Shown one piece after another: positions 17,175-24,816 of a stretch of DNA of 64,000 nt. Source of the DNA: Streptomyces ortus (GTDB lineage Bacteria; Actinomycetota; Actinomycetes; Streptomycetales; Streptomycetaceae); NCBI RefSeq assembly GCF_026341275.1, contig NZ_JAIFZO010000002.1, positions 6,292,118 to 6,356,117 of the forward strand, in the 5' to 3' direction. The notes under the pieces are model-generated. The model was not told where the DNA came from and did not search any database. It saw only the letters and a list, made by a program, of their open reading frames with translations. A program made the position numbers and the translations under genes. How positions within the stretch are numbered: the stretch's first letter is position 1; each line of letters begins with the position of its first letter.

Positions 17175-17906
17175 ATGAGTGACGACGCCCCCACCACCGG
17201 CCCGGCCAGGACCCCGAACGCCGGCAAGAAGGCCAAGGACCTCAACGAGGTCATCCGCTACACCCTGTGGTCCGTGTTCAAACTGCGCGACGTGCTCCCC
17301 GAAGACCGTGCCGGTTACGCGGACGAGGTCCAGGAGCTGTTCGACCAGCTCGCAGCCAAGGACGTCACGGTCCGCGGCACGTACGACGTGTCCGGGCTGC
17401 GCGCCGACGCCGACGTCATGATCTGGTGGCACGCCGAGACCGCCGACCAGCTGCAGGAGGCGTACAACCTCTTCCGGCGTACGAAGCTGGGGCGCGCGCT
17501 GGAGCCGGTCTGGTCGAACATGGCGCTGCACCGGCCGGCGGAGTTCAACCGCTCGCACGTGCCGGCGTTCCTCGCAGACGAGACGCCGCGCGACTACATC
17601 AGCGTGTATCCGTTCGTGCGCTCCTACGACTGGTACCTGCTGCCGGACGAGGACCGCCGCCGGATGCTCGCGGACCACGGGAAGATGGCGCGCGGCTACC
17701 CGGACGTGCGGGCCAACACGGTCGCGTCGTTCTCGCTGGGCGACTACGAGTGGATCCTCGCGTTCGAGGCGGACGAGCTGTACCGCATCGTGGACCTGAT
17801 GCGCCACCTCCGCGCGTCGGAGGCCCGCATGCACGTCCGCGAGGAGGTCCCGTTCTACACGGGCCGCCGAAAGTCGGTAACGGAACTGGTAGCGGCCCTG
17901 GCCTGA
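17175..17906 (+). CDS. hemQ: Coproheme decarboxylase HemQ/ChdC
   Basis: 243 residues of the chlorite-dismutase-like family. It converts coproheme to haem b using peroxide, the last step of the coproporphyrin-dependent pathway. His168 ([12 protein letters not shown]) is at the axial-ligand position and Tyr145 ([12 protein letters not shown]) at the position of the radical-forming Tyr known from Firmicute ChdC. The stop of the oxidase and the ATG here are 4 bases apart, with a CGGGAGA ribosome site inside the oxidase tail, so the two are co-transcribed. Coproporphyrin ferrochelatase is not in this window. Confidence 0.94.
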
Positions 17907-18075: not shown

Positions 18076-19653
18076 CTAGCGGGGCTCCGGGGGCGCGTGC
18101 GGACCGCAGGTCGCCCGGGCCCCCGGAACCCGCCCCTCCAACAGGTACGCCTCCAAGTGGGCGTTCACGCACGCGTTCGGCCCGCCCCCGATCCCGTGCG
18201 ACCCGGCCCCCGACTCCGTGACCAGGGAGGACCCCGCCAGACGCCGGTGCATCTCCACCGCCCCCGCGTACGGCGCCGCCGCGTCCCGTTCCGCCGCGAG
18301 GACGAGCGTGGGTGCCAGTTCACCCGGGAACGTACGGACGTCGAGCGGCCGTTGGCGCGGCAGCGGCCAGTAGGCGCACGGCAGGTTCGTCCAGACGTTG
18401 GACCACGTCTCGAAGGGCGCCACGCGCGCGAGACGCGTGTTGTCGCGGTCCCAGGTGTGCCAGGCCCGCGGCCAGGGCGCGTCGTTGCACTCGATCGCGG
18501 TGTAGACGGCCTTGCTGTTCTCCGCCTCCTTCACCGCGTCCTCGTGCGGCCCCGCCTGCCGGATCAGCTGTTTCGGATCGCCCTTCAGATACGCGGAGAG
18601 CGCCCGCGCGCGGTGCGGCCAGTAGTCGTCGTAGTACCCGGCCTGCAGGAACGCGCCCTGCAGCTGCCCCGGTCCGACCACACCGCCCGCCGGTTCCGCC
18701 GCGAGCCGCGCCTCCGCCCGCTCGTAACTGCGCTGCACCTCCCGTGCCGTGTGGCCCAGCCCGTACACCGTGTCGTGCCGGGCGGTCCAGGCGCGGAAGT
18801 CGGCCCAGCGGCCCTCGAAGGCGGCCGACTGGTCGAGGTTGTTGCCGTACCAGACCTTCGCCGGGTCCGGGTTCACGGCCGAGTCGAGGACCATCCGGCG
18901 TACGTGCGAGGGGAACAGCTCCGCGTACAGGGCCCCGAAGTAGGTGCCGTAGGACGCCCCCATGAAGGTCAGCCTCCGCTCGCCCAGGGCCGCGCGCAGG
19001 ACGTCCAGGTCGCGGGCGTTGTTGACTGAGGTGAAGTGCCTGATCGCGCGGCCCGACCGCTCGACACAGCCCCGCGCGTATGCCTTCGCCCGGGCGACGC
19101 GCTCCTCCTTGTACGCCGGCGAGGGGTTCGTCGGCGACGGCGTGGGCCCCCTCAGGAGCCGCTTCGGGTCCTGGCAGGACAGCGGGGCCGAGCGGGCCAC
19201 CCCGCGCGGGGCGTACCCGACGAGGTCGTACGCCGACGCGATGCGCTTCCACTCCGGGACCATGCCGATCAGCGGGAAGTACATGCCGGACGCGCCGGGG
19301 CCGCCAGGGTTGTAGACGAGCGCGCCCTGCCGGGGGACGGAGCGTTCGCGGTGTGCGGCGTCCTTGCCGGTCGCCCGCACCCGGCTGACGGTCAGCTCGA
19401 TCTGCTCGCCGTCGGGGTGCGCGTAGTCGAGCGGGACCCGCACCGTGCCGCACCGCAGGGTGGCCGGCCCCTCCTCGTCCTCGGAACACCTCCCGAAGCG
19501 GATGCCTTCGACGGCGGCGCGTTCGGCGGCGACCGCCGTGCCGTGCCGCTCGGCCCAGCCGGACGAGGCCCGGGCGCTTCCCGCCGGTGCGACGGCGAGG
19601 ACGGCGGTCAGGAGCAGGGACCCGGCCGTTCCCCGGAGGACGGCAGCTCGCAT
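18076..19653 (-). CDS. Secreted tripeptidyl aminopeptidase-like alpha/beta hydrolase
   Basis: 525 residues. The first 29 residues are a Sec signal peptide (GSLLLTAVLAVAPAGSARA). The alpha/beta-hydrolase core has the oxyanion region YNPGGPGASGM, nucleophile Ser234 in FMGASYGTYFG, Asp in LVLAAERDAAAPY and His in SGAGSHGIGGG, in the order and with the TAP-like C-terminal domain of Streptomyces tripeptidyl aminopeptidases. It would release short peptides outside the cell. The usual FDPRGVG element reads YAPRGVARS here. The ATG follows GAAGGGA. The frame remains open far upstream; that part is antisense to or overlaps the next genes and is not coding. Confidence 0.87.
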   Translation of the reverse strand: MRAAVLRGTAGSLLLTAVLAVAPAGSARASSGWAERHGTAVAAERAAVEGIRFGRCSEDEEGPATLRCGTVRVPLDYAHPDGEQIELTVSRVRATGKDAAHRERSVPRQGALVYNPGGPGASGMYFPLIGMVPEWKRIASAYDLVGYAPRGVARSAPLSCQDPKRLLRGPTPSPTNPSPAYKEERVARAKAYARGCVERSGRAIRHFTSVNNARDLDVLRAALGERRLTFMGASYGTYFGALYAELFPSHVRRMVLDSAVNPDPAKVWYGNNLDQSAAFEGRWADFRAWTARHDTVYGLGHTAREVQRSYERAEARLAAEPAGGVVGPGQLQGAFLQAGYYDDYWPHRARALSAYLKGDPKQLIRQAGPHEDAVKEAENSKAVYTAIECNDAPWPRAWHTWDRDNTRLARVAPFETWSNVWTNLPCAYWPLPRQRPLDVRTFPGELAPTLVLAAERDAAAPYAGAVEMHRRLAGSSLVTESGAGSHGIGGGPNACVNAHLEAYLLEGRVPGARATCGPHAPPEPR

Positions 19654-19805: not shown

Positions 19806-20579
19806 CTAGAGATGCGGCTCGCGGTGTCCGAAAGCCGCCCGCAGGTTGGGTTCGCCGACCGCCCGGATGCCGCGCACGGCCACGGTGGTGAGGTACGTAC
19901 GGTCGTCGCAGCCGGCGTCCGCCCGGTGGGCCAGGGAACTGAGCAGGTGCTGGCCGGCCGGGGACGCCCAGCGGGTGTAGGGGTGCACCTCGATCCGCGC
20001 GATGGCCAGACAGCTCATGGTGAGGATGAGGGGCAGCGTGAACCAGACGGCCACCAGCGCCCGCTCCTGCTGGGCCTGCGCGGGCATCAGCAGGGCCACG
20101 GCGGCCAGCACCAGGACGGCCACCGTGGCCGACCGCACCTGGCGCACGGCGCCCGCGACGGTGGTGCGCGCCCCGTCCGGCACGGCGAGGCCGGCCGCGA
20201 TCAGCCGGTCCGCGAGCACACGTACGGACTCCGCGGCGGCGGCGCTCCTGCGGACCGGCGCTATCCGGGACTGTCCGTCGGGGCCGATCGCGCCCAGGAC
20301 GGAACACTCCATCTCGTCCCGGCCGCACGGGTCCACGACGGTCGCCCAGCCGGTGTGGGCGAGCAGCAGCCGGCGCTGGCGGGCCATCGACACGAGCGTC
20401 AGATCGGCGACCCTGGCGGGGCCGCCCGACAGGAACGCGGCCTCGTAGAGAGTCAGACCGCGCCCGTCGAGCGTGTGCGTGTCGTCCGCGGCGGCGGCAC
20501 GGACCGAGGCCAGGCACAGGCGCGTACAGGCCGTGCCCGCCACGGCCCAGGCGAGGAGAAGGAGGAGGACCCAGAACAT
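19806..20579 (-). CDS. TIGR04222 domain-containing membrane protein
   Basis: 257 residues. An N-terminal membrane helix (FWVLLLLLAWAVAGTACTRLCLA) is followed by the conserved LTLYEAAFLSGGPARVADLTLVSMARQRRLLL block, which I recognise as the TIGR04222 pattern, then two more helices near 155-172 and 180-200. Members often end in a Gly/Cys-rich tail; this one ends instead at FGHREPHL with no such tail. Function unknown. Genes of this family often sit near DUF692 enzymes, as here, which suggests a shared process. Ribosome site weak. Confidence 0.75.
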   Translation of the reverse strand: MFWVLLLLLAWAVAGTACTRLCLASVRAAAADDTHTLDGRGLTLYEAAFLSGGPARVADLTLVSMARQRRLLLAHTGWATVVDPCGRDEMECSVLGAIGPDGQSRIAPVRRSAAAAESVRVLADRLIAAGLAVPDGARTTVAGAVRQVRSATVAVLVLAAVALLMPAQAQQERALVAVWFTLPLILTMSCLAIARIEVHPYTRWASPAGQHLLSSLAHRADAGCDDRTYLTTVAVRGIRAVGEPNLRAAFGHREPHL

Positions 20580-20623
20580 GCCGGATTTCTATGCGAAGCG
20601 GGACCGGCCCCGCCACGGCTTGT

Positions 20624-21514
20624 TCACAATTTGGACGAAGCATCACCAAGGTGTGACGTTTCGCGTCGGCGGTCCTTCGGTTGCTTGGACTTGTTGTCGC
20701 TGTCTCCCGGCCCGTCCCTGCCCTCCGCCCCGTCCCTGCCCTCCGCGCCGGGCCCGTCCTCGGCCGGCGGGGCGGTCGCGGCCGGGGGCAGGGAGTAGGT
20801 CGGGGTGGGTGTGGCGGGGACGGGGGGACGGGGAGAGGCCTTCGGGCCGGGGGGTGCGGGGGAGTGGGTGAGCGGGGGCGCGCTCGCGGAGGCCGCGTCA
20901 CGGGCCAGGGCGTCGAAGTCGACCAGACCGGTCGCCTCCAGGACCGTGATGTGGTCCAGCACCGTGGTGTTCGCGTCGTTGGCGAGGTCCCGGACGAGTG
21001 AGTTGCGCGTGTTCGCGCGGATCTGGGCGACCAGGCCGAACACCTTGCCGTGCGCGGCGCGGAGGATGTTCGCGAACTGCCGGTCGTACTCCTCGCCCCG
21101 CGCCGCGCTCAGCGTGGCGAGCCAGGCGCGCTGCTGTTCGCTGGGCTGGTTGGGCAGTTCGAGGCCGAGCCGCGCGGCCACGTCGCGTACGCGCGCGTCC
21201 AGGAACGTATGGCCCTCGACGAGGTGCTCGCCCGCCGTCCGTACGGCCTTGGTGGTGCCGCGGTCCTCGGCCTGCTGGCCGGCGGGCAGTTCCCACAGGC
21301 CCGCGAGCCGGACCTTCGTGACGAAGTCCCGGTCCTGCGCGGACAGGGGGCCGAAACTCGTCGACACGCTCTCGGCGTTCAGGGTGTCCACGCCCGTGCC
21401 CGACCGGTCCGCGTACGACCAGAGCGGGAAGAACAGTGCCACGAGGGTCGTCGTCAGACCCGCGATGATGAGCCCGGTGCCGGTGAACGGTCCGCGGCCG
21501 TTGATGGATCGCAT
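20624..21514 (-). CDS. DUF4142 domain protein A (membrane-anchored, exported)
   Basis: 296 residues. A helix at about 12-33 (GLIIAGLTTTLVALFFPLWSYA) anchors or exports the protein. The DUF4142 domain (about 55-205) is four-helix in character, with conserved AGEHLVEGHTFLDARV, RAAHGKVFGLV and VLDHITVLEATGLVDF, giving several His and acidic residues. The last 90 residues are a Pro/Ser/Ala then charged, low-complexity tail. An ideal GGAGG site precedes the ATG. A paralogue lies on the other side of the DUF692 gene. The family's function is unknown; a ferritin-like fold has been proposed for it as far as I recall. Confidence 0.82.
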   Translation of the reverse strand: MRSINGRGPFTGTGLIIAGLTTTLVALFFPLWSYADRSGTGVDTLNAESVSTSFGPLSAQDRDFVTKVRLAGLWELPAGQQAEDRGTTKAVRTAGEHLVEGHTFLDARVRDVAARLGLELPNQPSEQQRAWLATLSAARGEEYDRQFANILRAAHGKVFGLVAQIRANTRNSLVRDLANDANTTVLDHITVLEATGLVDFDALARDAASASAPPLTHSPAPPGPKASPRPPVPATPTPTYSLPPAATAPPAEDGPGAEGRDGAEGRDGPGDSDNKSKQPKDRRRETSHLGDASSKL

Positions 21515-21580
21515 GGTGCCTCCTGGTGCGGCACCGCACGTTAGTGCGCTTCTGGTGGAGAGATTGGCATATTACTTCGT

Positions 21581-21604
21581 GCCGTACGACACCTGTGGTA
21601 CGGC
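21581..21604 (-). promoter_or_regulatory. Inverted repeat upstream of DUF4142-A
   Basis: GCCGTAC (21581-21587) and GTACGGC (21598-21604) form a perfect 7-base inverted repeat with a 10-base spacer, about 70 bases before the DUF4142-A start in an AT-rich patch. On the reverse strand a TAATAT hexamer follows at 21574-21569. It may be an operator, or the terminator of the DUF692 transcript. Confidence 0.4.
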
Positions 21605-21686
21605 GTCGGACGTATGAAGTATGCGATCTGCCCGGCCGGCGGAAGCCTTCCCCGCCGTCCGCCGACGGGTTCTCGCCGACCGGTCC

Positions 21687-23009
21687 TCAACGCCTCAGCA
21701 GGACCCGGCGCGTGGCGCGGGCCAGCCGGGCCGCCGGGCGCCGCGACAACGGCGCCGGGCCCGAACGCTCCAGCCACCAGTCGCTCAGCGCGCGCCGCTC
21801 GACCGTGTCCCGCAGACCTCCCTCGAACAGCAGGTGCTCGGCGAAGTCCAGCGCGTCCCGCCGGTAGCCGGCCGTCATCGGGTGGCCCTGCGCGTACGCC
21901 AGGAACGCCTTCCGGTAGGACCGCGCCAGGATTTCCGGCAGCTCCGGAGCGACCTTGGCCACGACATCGGCCCGCTTGCCCGCCAGCGCCCGCGCCTGCA
22001 CGGCCAGCCGGGTCCGGTCGAAGCCCTCGGGCACGGGCGTCCCGGCGACGAGCGCGGACAGCAGCGCGGCCTGCGCGAGCGCGAGCCGCTGCCGGGCGGG
22101 GCCGGTGGAAGCGGCGACGGCCGAACCGCTGCCGGTCGGCGGCGCGTCGGCCGCGGCCTCACGTGCCGTCGCCGCTTCGGGCGCGGCGCCCTTCTCGACC
22201 GTTTCGCGGATCGCGATCAGTTCGCGTTCCAGCTCGGCCGGTTCGGGGAAGTTCTCGTCGCGCTCCAGGAGCACGCCAGGCGGGCGGACCCGGGAGGCCA
22301 GTTCGGCGAGCACGTCCAGGACCGCCGGGGGCACGGGGTGCGCGTGGCTGTCGTGCCAGACGCCGTCCCGCTCGAAGCCGCCGGCGACATGCACGTACGC
22401 GATGGCCTCGACGGGCAGTTCGTCGAGCGCCCGGGCCGGGTCCTCGCCGCGGTTGACGTGGTTGGTGTGGAGATTGGCCACGTCGATGAGCAGCCGTACG
22501 CCGGTGCGGTCGACCAGGTCGTACAGGAACTGCCCCTCGGTCATCTCCTCGCCCGGCCAGCAGATCAGTGCCGCGATGTTCTCCACCGCGAGCGGCACGG
22601 GCAGCGCGTCCTGGGCGATCCGGACGTTCTCGCACAGGACGTCGAGGGCGTCCCGGGTGCGGGGGACGGGCAGCAGGTGCCCGGCCTCCAGCAGCGGCGA
22701 GGCGGTCAGCGCCCCGCCCGCCCGGACGAACGCGATGTGCTCGGTGACCAGCGGGGAGCCGAGGGCCTCGGCGCGGGCCGCCAGGTCGGCGAGTTTCCCC
22801 TCGGCGGGGCGGTCGGCGCCGCCGAGCCCGAGCGACACCCCGTGCGGGACCACGGTCACCCCGCGCTCCCGCAACCGCACCAGGGATGCGGGGAGATGGC
22901 CGGGACAGATGTTCTCGGCGACGGCCTCGACCCAGTCGATGCCGGGCATGCGCTCCACGGCCTCGGCGATCTCCGGCCGCCACCCGATTCCCGTACCCAG
23001 GTTCCTCAT
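21687..23009 (-). CDS. DUF692 (MNIO) multinuclear iron oxidase-like protein with SCO6045-type C-terminal domain
   Basis: 440 residues. The N-terminal TIM-barrel (about 1-270) has the metal-ligand pattern of DUF692/MNIO enzymes such as MbnB and TglH: His56 ([11 protein letters not shown]), His91 (VTEHIAF), Glu143 (AVENIA), Asp176 and His181 ([10 protein letters not shown]), His207 (YVHVAGG), the DSHAHP pair and Glu249 (LLERDENF). Known relatives modify peptide cysteines using two or three iron atoms. After an Ala-rich linker a helical domain (about 310-420: [15 protein letters not shown]...[26 protein letters not shown]) matches the SCO6045-like C-terminal family. The ATG at 23009 has GGAGGTGGGG just upstream; 9 codons earlier a GTG is possible. 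No peptide precursor gene is evident beside it. Confidence 0.88.
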
Positions 23010-23164
23010 CGTCCCCCACCTCCGCTGCTCCACCACGACTTCACCAGGACCTTGCGCGTCTCCTTCGACGGACCTGTGTTCCGGCGTGACGGGGTGATGG
23101 CCCCGTCAGGCGGGGCCGAACCCATCGGCGGGGACGTTCAGAGCAACATTTGAGGTTCCGGCCG

Positions 23165-23959
23165 TCACTGCGAGGTGGGGGTGGCGTCCGGGTCCTCGGG
23201 GTCGGGGCGGTTCGTGTTGACCGTGCCCGGCGCCCCGGGGGAGGGCCGTGACGTGGTGCTGACGTCACCGGTGGCCGCGGCGGGCGGCGCCGAGCTGGGG
23301 ACCACTCCGGGGACCGGTGCCGCCGGACCGGACGGGCTGGCCGTCGTTCCGGCGACCGAGTCGTTGGCGATCGCCTCGAAGTCGACGGCGCCGGTCTTCT
23401 CCAGCACCGTGATGTGGTCGAGCACGGTCTGGTTGGCATCCGAGGCGAGCTGCCGCACCAGCGTGTTGCGCGTCTGGTTCCGTACCGCTCCGATCGCCGG
23501 GAAGATCTTGCCGTGTGCGGAGCGCAGGAGGTTCGCCCACACCTTGGGGTAGTCCGCGTCGCTCGCGTTGGTCATCTGCTGCAGCCAGCCCTGCTGCTGC
23601 TCGTTCGGCTGGTTCGGCAGCTCGACGCCGAGATCCCGCGCGACCCCCCGCACCCGCTTGTCGAGGTCGGTGTGGCCGACGATCAGGTGGTCGGCGGCCT
23701 CCTTCATCGCGGGACTGGGGCTGCGTTCGAGGGCCTGCTGCCCGGCCGGCAGTTCCCACAGACCCGCCAGCCGCACCCGGACGATGAGGTCACGGTCGGT
23801 GGCGGTCAGGGGCCCCCACTTCGTCTGTACGGTCCCGGCGGCGAGGTTCGCCGGTCCCGTCCCGGCGCGGTCGGCGTACGACCACACGGGAAAGGCGAGC
23901 GCGCCGAGCGTTCCGACGAGTGCCACGATGACGAGGGCCGTACCGTTGATACGCCGCAC
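23165..23959 (-). CDS. DUF4142 domain protein B (membrane-anchored, exported)
   Basis: 264 residues, a clear paralogue of the DUF4142 protein at 20624-21514: same anchor layout (ALVIVALVGTLGALAFPVWSYADRAGTG), same VRLAGLWELPAGQQA block, ADHLIVGHTDLDKRV, RSAHGKIFPAIGAV and VLDHITVLEKTGAVDF. The C-terminal 60 residues are Pro/Ser/Thr-rich and probably exposed outside the membrane. GTG start with GGAGG 6 bases upstream. It is upstream of and same-strand with the DUF692 gene, 155 bases apart. Duplication around the enzyme suggests a functional link. Function unknown. Confidence 0.82.
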   Translation of the reverse strand: MRRINGTALVIVALVGTLGALAFPVWSYADRAGTGPANLAAGTVQTKWGPLTATDRDLIVRVRLAGLWELPAGQQALERSPSPAMKEAADHLIVGHTDLDKRVRGVARDLGVELPNQPNEQQQGWLQQMTNASDADYPKVWANLLRSAHGKIFPAIGAVRNQTRNTLVRQLASDANQTVLDHITVLEKTGAVDFEAIANDSVAGTTASPSGPAAPVPGVVPSSAPPAAATGDVSTTSRPSPGAPGTVNTNRPDPEDPDATPTSQ

Positions 23960-24102: not shown

Positions 24103-24816
24103 CTACCGCCGGTCCAGGCGCAGTGCCGGGTGGTCGGCGACCACCGTGCACGAACCCGGGGCGATCTCCGTGAAGCCGGCGTCGCGCACCAGCGGCAGGC
24201 CGCTCGTGACGAGGCGCTCCCAGTGCTCGGCGTCGGCCGTGCGGACGGCGAGCGGGAAGCCGGCCTCGCGCCAGGCCGCGCGGTCCTCGCCGGACAGCTC
24301 CCACCAGGCCAGTTGGGCGCCGTGGCCGGCCTGGGCCATCGCCTTGCCCGCCGACATGTCCAGGTCCGGGCTCAGCCACAGCACGGGCGTGGCCGCGTCG
24401 GGGTCGGCGGGCGGCTCCGGGTCGTCGAGGTCCGTGCCGGAGACCTGGAGGCGGGCCAGGTCCTTGGGCCAGCCGTCGAGCGGGACCGGCGGGAAGACGC
24501 GGACCTCGGCGGACTTGCCGGTGACGGTGATGCCGGGCAGTGCCTCCGCCCGGCGCCACTCGGCGCCGCGGGCCCGGCGGACGACCTTGCGGATGCGGGC
24601 GTCCTGCCAGTCGTGGACGGCCCGCGCCCACTCGCCCTCGCCGAGAGCGCGCTCGTCGCTGAGGAGGACCAGGACGGCGCGGGCGGCGGTCTCCAGCGCG
24701 TCCGTGCGGGCGGGGGGATCGGTCCGCTCGATACGGGCGACCAGGGGCAGTACGAACTGCGGGGCCTCGTCGCGGGCGGTGCGGTCGGGCTGGAAGGGGG
24801 TTGCGTCGCTGCTCAC
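24103..24816 (-). CDS. PTH2-like peptidyl-tRNA hydrolase family protein
   Basis: 237 residues. The segment LDMSAGKAMAQAGHGAQLAW is the signature of the PTH2 (archaeal/eukaryotic-type) peptidyl-tRNA hydrolase fold, which uses the conserved Lys and His. The N-terminal 130 residues (QFVLPLVARIERTDPPARTD..., AVHDWQDARIRKVVRRARGAEW) are an actinobacterial extension. It may recycle peptidyl-tRNA or act on a related ester bond; bacteria use the unrelated Pth for the housekeeping role, so this is probably accessory. GTG start. It is upstream of and same-strand with DUF4142-B. Confidence 0.75.
   Translation of the reverse strand: MSSDATPFQPDRTARDEAPQFVLPLVARIERTDPPARTDALETAARAVLVLLSDERALGEGEWARAVHDWQDARIRKVVRRARGAEWRRAEALPGITVTGKSAEVRVFPPVPLDGWPKDLARLQVSGTDLDDPEPPADPDAATPVLWLSPDLDMSAGKAMAQAGHGAQLAWWELSGEDRAAWREAGFPLAVRTADAEHWERLVTSGLPLVRDAGFTEIAPGSCTVVADHPALRLDRR

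Follow-up and report, generated by a model that had tools for sequence, protein, structure and literature searches.

An MNIO of Streptomyces ortus with a probable built-in partner domain, in a clade that mostly lacks the linked Cys-tailed TIGR04222 gene

Described MNIO systems and the Streptomyces ortus enzyme

MNIOs (DUF692 proteins) are a fast-growing family of enzymes, mostly needing a separate partner protein. The cavity of TglHI is built from both proteins, the partner docking on the enzyme barrel through its N-terminal helical domain (PMC10880893). In HvfBC, the active mixed-valent diiron state depends on the partner, and joining the HvfB C-terminus to the HvfC N-terminus by engineering yields a highly active fusion (PMC13419390). 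Here we describe an MNIO encoded on the minus strand (21687–23009) of a 64,000-nucleotide stretch of the Streptomyces ortus genome (contig NZ_JAIFZO010000002.1; hereafter the window, whose coordinates we use throughout). Sequence comparisons make it likely that this protein is a fused holoenzyme, that in most relatives it acts on the Cys-rich tail of a TIGR04222 membrane protein, that this substrate was lost in the clade of the window, where an unlinked one has taken its place, and that the genes beside it do not encode substrates.

The closest described systems are MNIO-TIGR04222 clusters, including 'adjamnio-II' (peptidyl-tRNA hydrolase, MNIO and TIGR04222; PMC12452194). They have the same enzyme family as the window and similar neighbours, the PTH2-like protein of the window comparing with the hydrolase of 'adjamnio-II'. 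Cys-tailed TIGR04222 proteins have already been proposed as MNIO substrates, and tail-less ones have been noted (Antoine et al. 2025, PMC12452194). Many of these clusters appear to be without a partner gene, and how they work was left open in the same paper. DUF4142, which lies beside the MNIO in the window, does not occur in the main text of that paper.

Other described systems compare with the C-terminal part of the window MNIO. The PME partners (type 1, DUF2063 plus an RRE; type 2, structurally related; examples are TglI, HvfC and BufC) are alike in their position after the MNIO and in a DUF2063-like profile, but the Streptomyces form is fused to the enzyme and has no evident RRE half, judging by length and by eye. 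The engineered HvfB-HvfC protein has the same domain order as the Streptomyces protein, which would be its natural counterpart; it differs in being artificial, in belonging to the oxazolin pathway and in having an RRE-containing partner. Extra C-terminal domains are also found in ChrH and DybH, with a helical bundle, and in MovX, with a fused RRE/winged helix-turn-helix. The ChrH helical-bundle domain is a separate protein in cyanobacteria (PMC12636315), and MovX is described as an MNIO with a fused RRE (PMC12636315; PMC13419390). MNIOs, their partners, the TIGR04222 link and the extra domains of ChrH and MovX are therefore already known. Literature searches within open-access main texts, together with the portions covered of PMC12452194, PMC13174530, PMC12636315, PMC13060819, PMC13419390 and PMC12710340, brought up no description of a natural MNIO that is fused to a DUF2063-like partner.

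The window MNIO has 440 amino acids when read from the ATG at 23009 selected by the gene caller, which is likelier than a longer form starting at GTG. Its catalytic TIM-barrel domain (residues 6–270; minus strand, 22200–22994) matches Pfam PF05114 at E 9.1e-75, with 251.7 bits against a cut-off of 25. Across 120 MNIO domains, 16 Asp, Glu, His or Asn positions were at least 97% conserved, and conservation was 100% in the 29-member clade of the window. They include H56, H91, E143, D176, N179, H207, D220, H222, E249 and D251. Two solved DUF692-family chains matched, one in the TglHI entries (8hci and 8hi7/8hi8) at E 5.4e-21 and the other in 3bww at 2.5e-19. From alignment to these solved chains, we take the conserved residues to be putative iron ligands. 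A first-pass annotation, made from the letters of the window alone, had remarked on conserved metal-ligand motifs, and these 16 positions, window included, bear that out.

The top NCBIfam model for the window MNIO was MNIO_BufB (NF050167; E 8.8e-51), the enzyme of the bufferin biosynthetic gene clusters (BufABC). The score nevertheless fell below the bufferin maturase cut-off (172.7 against 310 bits), and no DUF2063 gene was found in the window genome; such a match occurs in 3 of 394 genomes of the class. The NCBIfam ChrH model gave 37.2 against a cut-off of 600.

The C-terminal domain as a candidate partner

At the level of the phylum, 14 of 246 genomes had PF05114 matches; the figures were 99 of 394 for the class and 95 of 101 for the genus. 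Large neighbourhoods (8–19 kb, mostly 15 kb) were available for 133 matches, 13 from the phylum, 52 from the class and 68 from the genus. The genus-level loci are mostly the stronger matches; weaker-scoring genus rows and weak or partial class and genus matches were left out, and loci with flanks of about 1.5 kb (L001–L022 and L036–L063) were excluded from the counts. With the window, this gave 134 loci, 77 from Streptomyces and 57 others. Counts use the 120 loci with a detectable C-terminal domain (73 Streptomyces, 47 others), and the 14 without one were set apart. The MNIO tree has 125 rows, and the C-domain alignment omits masked-residue sequences and near-duplicates, plus L074, L092 and L108 from 89.

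By profile comparison, the C-terminal domain of the fused MNIO (residues 297–440 in the window; minus strand, 21690–22121) is homologous to a small protein encoded after the MNIO in other actinomycetes. The profile matched in 120 of the 134 neighbourhoods, as a fusion or as a separate open reading frame (ORF). The domain was in the MNIO frame at 77 of the 120 loci, comprising 66 of the 73 Streptomyces loci and 11 of the 47 others (all family f75), and was a separate ORF downstream of the MNIO at the remaining 43. For 33 of these 43, a possible start of the separate partner was no more than 14 nt away from the MNIO stop, with 25 overlapping by 4 or 8 nt; this spacing uses the nearest possible start, which biases it toward small gaps. 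Profiles of the fused (15 sequences) and separate (17 sequences) forms aligned at E 2.3e-29 over 115 columns. The fused or separate state requires seven changes on the MNIO tree, and four when Streptomyces is taken alone, and barrel and C-domain distances were correlated (r = 0.85, 60 loci, uncorrected for phylogeny). Of 24 named Streptomyces or Actinacidiphila loci, some of them already in the main set, 23 hold the MNIO domain, 19 in the fused and 4 in the separate form. A named Nonomuraea locus (L199, Streptosporangiaceae) had the separate-partner layout and two Cys-tailed TIGR04222 genes.

The C-terminal domain also appears to be weakly but specifically related to DUF2063, a known MNIO partner domain. 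When 86 members were searched against Pfam, DUF2063 was matched at E ≤ 1 by 14, with a best E of 2.7e-4, and every other family by at most two. In hhalign, the comparison with DUF2063 scored 27.5 over 86 columns, near full-length. The reference consisted of nine partners, two of them Pfam-confirmed and the rest tblastn relatives of one, with L035 included by position. The 29 negative controls (eight unrelated families, the reversed alignment and 20 column shuffles) reached at most 15.8 and 23 columns. From this we infer a DUF2063-like fold.

Several results weigh against this relationship and against a partner at every locus. The hhalign link is weak in absolute terms, with a probability of 25% and E 7.7e-4 for one comparison; these values were 15% and 0.0019 for the separate set by itself, and 4% and 0.01 for the fused set by itself. 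The C-terminal domain of the window itself had no DUF2063 match at E ≤ 1 in Pfam and lacks the PME-type 1 signature. The profiles were trained iteratively on the very loci counted. Finally, L070, L082, L084, L085 and L157 have a Cys-tailed TIGR04222 and an MNIO with no detectable C-terminal domain, so the partner is either not universal or diverges beyond the profile. The first four of these loci form one branch of family f3. The C-terminal domain of the window passed the cut-off of none of the models in the Pfam and NCBIfam copies used. Neither the C-domain profile nor the DUF2063 profile retrieved a solved structure, so that the TglI and NGO1945 structures could not be linked directly by sequence.

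Together, the homology to the separate downstream protein and the relation to DUF2063 support the inference of a fused partner. The first-pass annotation had proposed both that the extra C-terminal domain exists and that it replaces a separate partner; the profile matches establish the former and favour the latter. With conserved ligand-like barrel residues and a docking domain in one chain, the protein is best read as a self-contained holoenzyme, in which a TIM-barrel iron oxidase would form one polypeptide with the partner domain, a protein of its own in other actinomycetes. The C-terminal domain would dock on the barrel, complete the active-site cavity and keep the iron cluster active, as TglI does for TglH and HvfC for HvfB.

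A natural one-chain MNIO-partner protein of this kind occurs in 66 of the 77 sampled Streptomyces loci. For the Streptomyces cases, the fusion offers an answer to how MNIO-TIGR04222 clusters can appear without a partner gene. It would also give structural and spectroscopic work a simple system consisting of one protein.

A second type of actinomycete MNIO cluster was seen in L114 (6153–9819), L115 (6013–9401) and L035 (8577–12123), where genes for a Cys protein, an MNIO, a partner and a protein of 392–436 amino acids follow one another. The first protein has 174–214 amino acids and 8–9 Cys, and the partner was confirmed as DUF2063 for L114 and L115. The protein of 392–436 amino acids is presumably ferritin-like.

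Probable substrates in relatives and in the clade of the window

We call TIGR04222 proteins type A when their Ser/Gly-rich tail contains three or more Cys, and their tail-less paralogues type B. In most Streptomyces outside the clade of the window and in several related families, the substrate is very likely the Ser/Gly/Cys-rich type A tail. Among the Streptomyces loci, 43 of 73 have a type A gene near the MNIO, as do 33 of the 47 other loci, and tailed TIGR04222 genes were found in 8 of the 23 named Streptomyces and Actinacidiphila loci holding the MNIO domain. S. griseus (L211) is one of the Streptomyces with a type A gene. The median tail has 8 Cys in 96 residues in Streptomyces and 4 in 58 elsewhere. 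In 35 of 38 measured Streptomyces cases, the distance from the MNIO stop to the type A start is −7 to +7 nt. None of eight MNIO-less Streptomyces (G162, G422, G488, G621, G658, G693, G705 and G708) had type A at the locus, and three (G488, G658 and G708) kept a tail-less TIGR04222. The Cys of the type A tail would probably be oxidised before or during membrane insertion, perhaps to thiooxazole-type metal-binding groups, if the chemistry resembles that of bufferins and oxazolins.

Other observations fit this assignment less well. Outside Streptomyces, the spacing between TIGR04222 and MNIO genes varies from −46 to 1540 nt, TIGR04222 is usually upstream, and 13 of the 47 loci have no TIGR04222 nearby. 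The MNIO-less G705, a fragmented genome, has a TIGR04222 with three C-terminal Cys at another locus. In addition, modification of any TIGR04222 protein is not reported in the parts of the literature covered.

Near an MNIO-TIGR04222 pair from another actinomycete family we also observed a His-rich, possibly metal-binding ORF of 66 amino acids (L104, 6104–6304, minus strand).

The window MNIO belongs to a clade of 29 Streptomyces MNIOs (Shimodaira–Hasegawa-like approximate likelihood ratio test, SH-aLRT, 96). Type A was missing beside the MNIO in 27 of the 28 clade members that could be judged, L150 being cut by a contig end and L160 being the one member that retains type A, and was present in 42 of 44 Streptomyces loci outside the clade. 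In S. sulfonofaciens (L203), which belongs to the clade, neither a TIGR04222 nor a DUF4142 gene adjoins the MNIO. The position at which type A sits in most of those loci corresponds in the window to a gap (minus strand, 21515–21686) with no detected remnant; at E < 1e-4, tblastn with four type A proteins recovered nothing in the window but the type B gene. This type B gene encodes the sole TIGR04222 protein detected in the window, which ends 16 residues past the NCBIfam match and has no C-proximal Cys-rich segment. Its six Cys all lie within the domain match, in agreement with the first-pass annotation, which had described it as lacking a Cys-rich tail.

When 25 candidates were scored per genome, 12 of the 29 clade genomes had one TIGR04222 match. 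With all candidates scored, TIGR04222 was not detected in three clade genomes (G656, G182 and G023). Including G634, four genomes have an MNIO without a detected TIGR04222. A whole-genome search with the Cys-rich tail recovered only its own source and missed the tail-carrying G630, G703 and G104, and was not used; the window genome may therefore still encode an unlinked Cys-rich protein. No precursor gene was found beside the window MNIO, in that no type A remnant was present, short or unusual ORFs not having been searched systematically; nor was a bufferin-like precursor seen there.

The enzyme itself has been kept. The fusion is present in all 29 clade members, and the median ratio of nonsynonymous to synonymous substitution rates (dN/dS) was 0.12 in 14 clade pairs versus 0.15 in 18 other Streptomyces pairs. 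Since the enzyme is intact and under purifying selection without the ancestral substrate, it acts most likely on an unlinked one. The type A gene would have been lost and the enzyme retained, and the present substrate in the lineage of the window is probably unlinked to the MNIO. That the substrate could be encoded elsewhere was one of the options named in the first-pass annotation, and for this lineage we favour it.

More tentatively, we suggest that the MNIO-partner protein of this clade outlived its Cys-tailed membrane substrate and may now be a stand-alone housekeeping oxidiser that acts in trans on one or more unlinked proteins, outside RiPP (ribosomally synthesized and post-translationally modified peptide) clusters. 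A clade that keeps the enzyme without the Cys-tailed protein makes it experimentally addressable which proteins MNIOs modify beyond RiPP precursors, and this question sits in a genetically tractable genus.

The first-pass annotation used the label 'SCO6045-type' for the C-terminal domain, and SCO6045 may be the orthologue of the window MNIO. If it is, co-induction by peroxide would place the enzyme in thiol or oxidative-stress physiology. SCO6045 was induced 3-fold by peroxide in the wild type and not in a mutant without HbpS-SenS-SenR, and cysteine biosynthesis genes were induced together with it (PMC4991794, Table 1).

At 42 of 73 Streptomyces loci, a conserved six-Cys protein of 62–81 amino acids (CxxC...CxxC; L027, 12326–12526, minus strand, and relatives) is encoded close to the MNIO. 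By eye it is zinc-ribbon-like, and it has no Pfam or NCBIfam match. It occurred in 9 of 18 genomes tested, all nine with an MNIO, and was missing from the six MNIO-less Streptomyces tested. It was rejected as the precursor for the window, being missing from the window genome, and is a candidate elsewhere.

Alternative readings and neighbouring genes

On the minus strand of the window, the order of transcription is PTH2-like, DUF4142b, MNIO, DUF4142a, TIGR04222 and alpha/beta hydrolase. The inventory given in the first-pass annotation, an MNIO flanked by two DUF4142 paralogues with a TIGR04222 gene on the same strand, was upheld by Pfam and NCBIfam matches that all exceed their cut-offs. Across the whole genome, the profiles matched one MNIO, one TIGR04222 and seven DUF4142 proteins. 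We consider the two DUF4142 proteins and the tail-less TIGR04222 most likely to be neighbours of the MNIO and not its substrates.

It is rather unlikely that the type B TIGR04222 protein (minus strand, 19806–20579; NCBIfam E 3.4e-41, above cut-off), which lies beside the alpha/beta hydrolase gene, serves as the substrate of this lineage through its own Cys residues. Of 48 type B proteins, 41 retain Cys 18, 44 retain Cys 22 and 45 retain Cys 190, and the single match in 12 of the 29 clade genomes would suit such a role. However, these three Cys lie within hydrophobic stretches (1–24 and 173–196), where a soluble enzyme would hardly reach them. Type B also needs 14 changes on the tree, and the two genes occur apart: tail-less copies without an MNIO in G488, G658 and G708, and MNIOs without a detected TIGR04222 in G182, G023, G656 and G634.

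Turning to the C-terminal domain, it could instead be a substrate-specific or structural extension unrelated to partners, comparable to the C-terminal helical bundle of ChrH. This is unlikely. The low absolute DUF2063 score and the lack of an evident RRE-like half would be in keeping with it, and DybH, a ChrH relative, works without a partner (PMC12636315). Against it stand the direct homology of the domain to the small protein encoded right after the MNIO, a position that is usual for partner genes (PMC12452194), and the fact that DUF2063 is the sole family matched by more than two members. A fused partner remains our preferred reading of this domain.

The two DUF4142 proteins each have one N-terminal hydrophobic stretch and no Cys. 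DUF4142a (minus strand, 20624–21514; hydrophobic stretch 10–34; Pfam E 2.4e-22, 80.1 bits) starts 172 bp past the MNIO stop, and DUF4142b (minus strand, 23165–23959; hydrophobic stretch 3–29; Pfam E 2.3e-17, 64 bits) lies on the other side of the MNIO. Both pass the Pfam cut-off of 27 and are 53% identical across 247 columns. By eye, both have Pro-rich tails. A search of solved structures with DUF4142 gave nothing credible.

The first-pass annotation had suggested that an exported neighbour is the substrate. For this to apply to one or both DUF4142 proteins, the modified residues would have to be other than Cys, and Asp, Asn and Phe are indeed possible MNIO targets (PMC12636315). A downstream DUF4142 was also more common where type A was missing (17 of 30 Streptomyces loci versus 4 of 43 with type A). 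The Fisher test for this association (p 1.6e-5, uncorrected) is nevertheless not evidence, because the tree leaves two supported independent pairs, or four in all. DUF4142 adjoined the MNIO in 36 of 73 Streptomyces loci, on both sides in 6, and in none of the 47 others, and on the tree the downstream neighbour requires 10 changes and the upstream one 12. At loci without type A, 127–1050 bp separate the MNIO stop from the DUF4142a start (17 cases), compared with the tight spacing of type A described above. Co-occurrence, spacing and tree changes thus disfavour the DUF4142 proteins, and we regard them as very unlikely substrates. The first-pass annotation had also proposed counting the co-occurrence of these genes and had named their free separation as a refutation; MNIO, DUF4142 and TIGR04222 were found largely to separate across genomes. 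In G656 (L141) and G634 (L159), for example, the MNIO has no DUF4142 nearby and TIGR04222 was not detected in the genome.

The missing tailed gene in 27 of 28 members might suggest that the enzyme of this clade is a relic without function from a pathway since lost. This is scarcely credible given that all 29 members keep the 16 conserved positions and the fusion, with a dN/dS not above that of lineages with the substrate.

The PTH2-like protein (minus strand, 24103–24816; Pfam) was found near the MNIO in 57 of 73 Streptomyces loci, and also in four of eight MNIO-less Streptomyces. In two genomes of other families, its gene is on another contig than the MNIO. The association is therefore probably independent of the MNIO, and we rejected the PTH2-like protein as a functional partner.

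Two flanking genes are common to relatives, the alpha/beta hydrolase gene (TAP-like; minus strand, 18076–19653; Pfam) and a plus-strand gene at 17175–17906, identified by locating homologues. The latter is presumably HemQ-like and, together with a presumably HemY-like gene, follows the alpha/beta hydrolase gene on the plus strand. In several relatives, a two-gene pair on the opposite strand (L027, 10605–12235, plus strand; L164, 9495–11029, plus strand) lies between the PTH2-like gene and a gene that we take to be polysaccharide deacetylase-like. The pair is presumably ABC-transporter-like, and the window has in its place a gene that we assume to be aldo/keto reductase-like.

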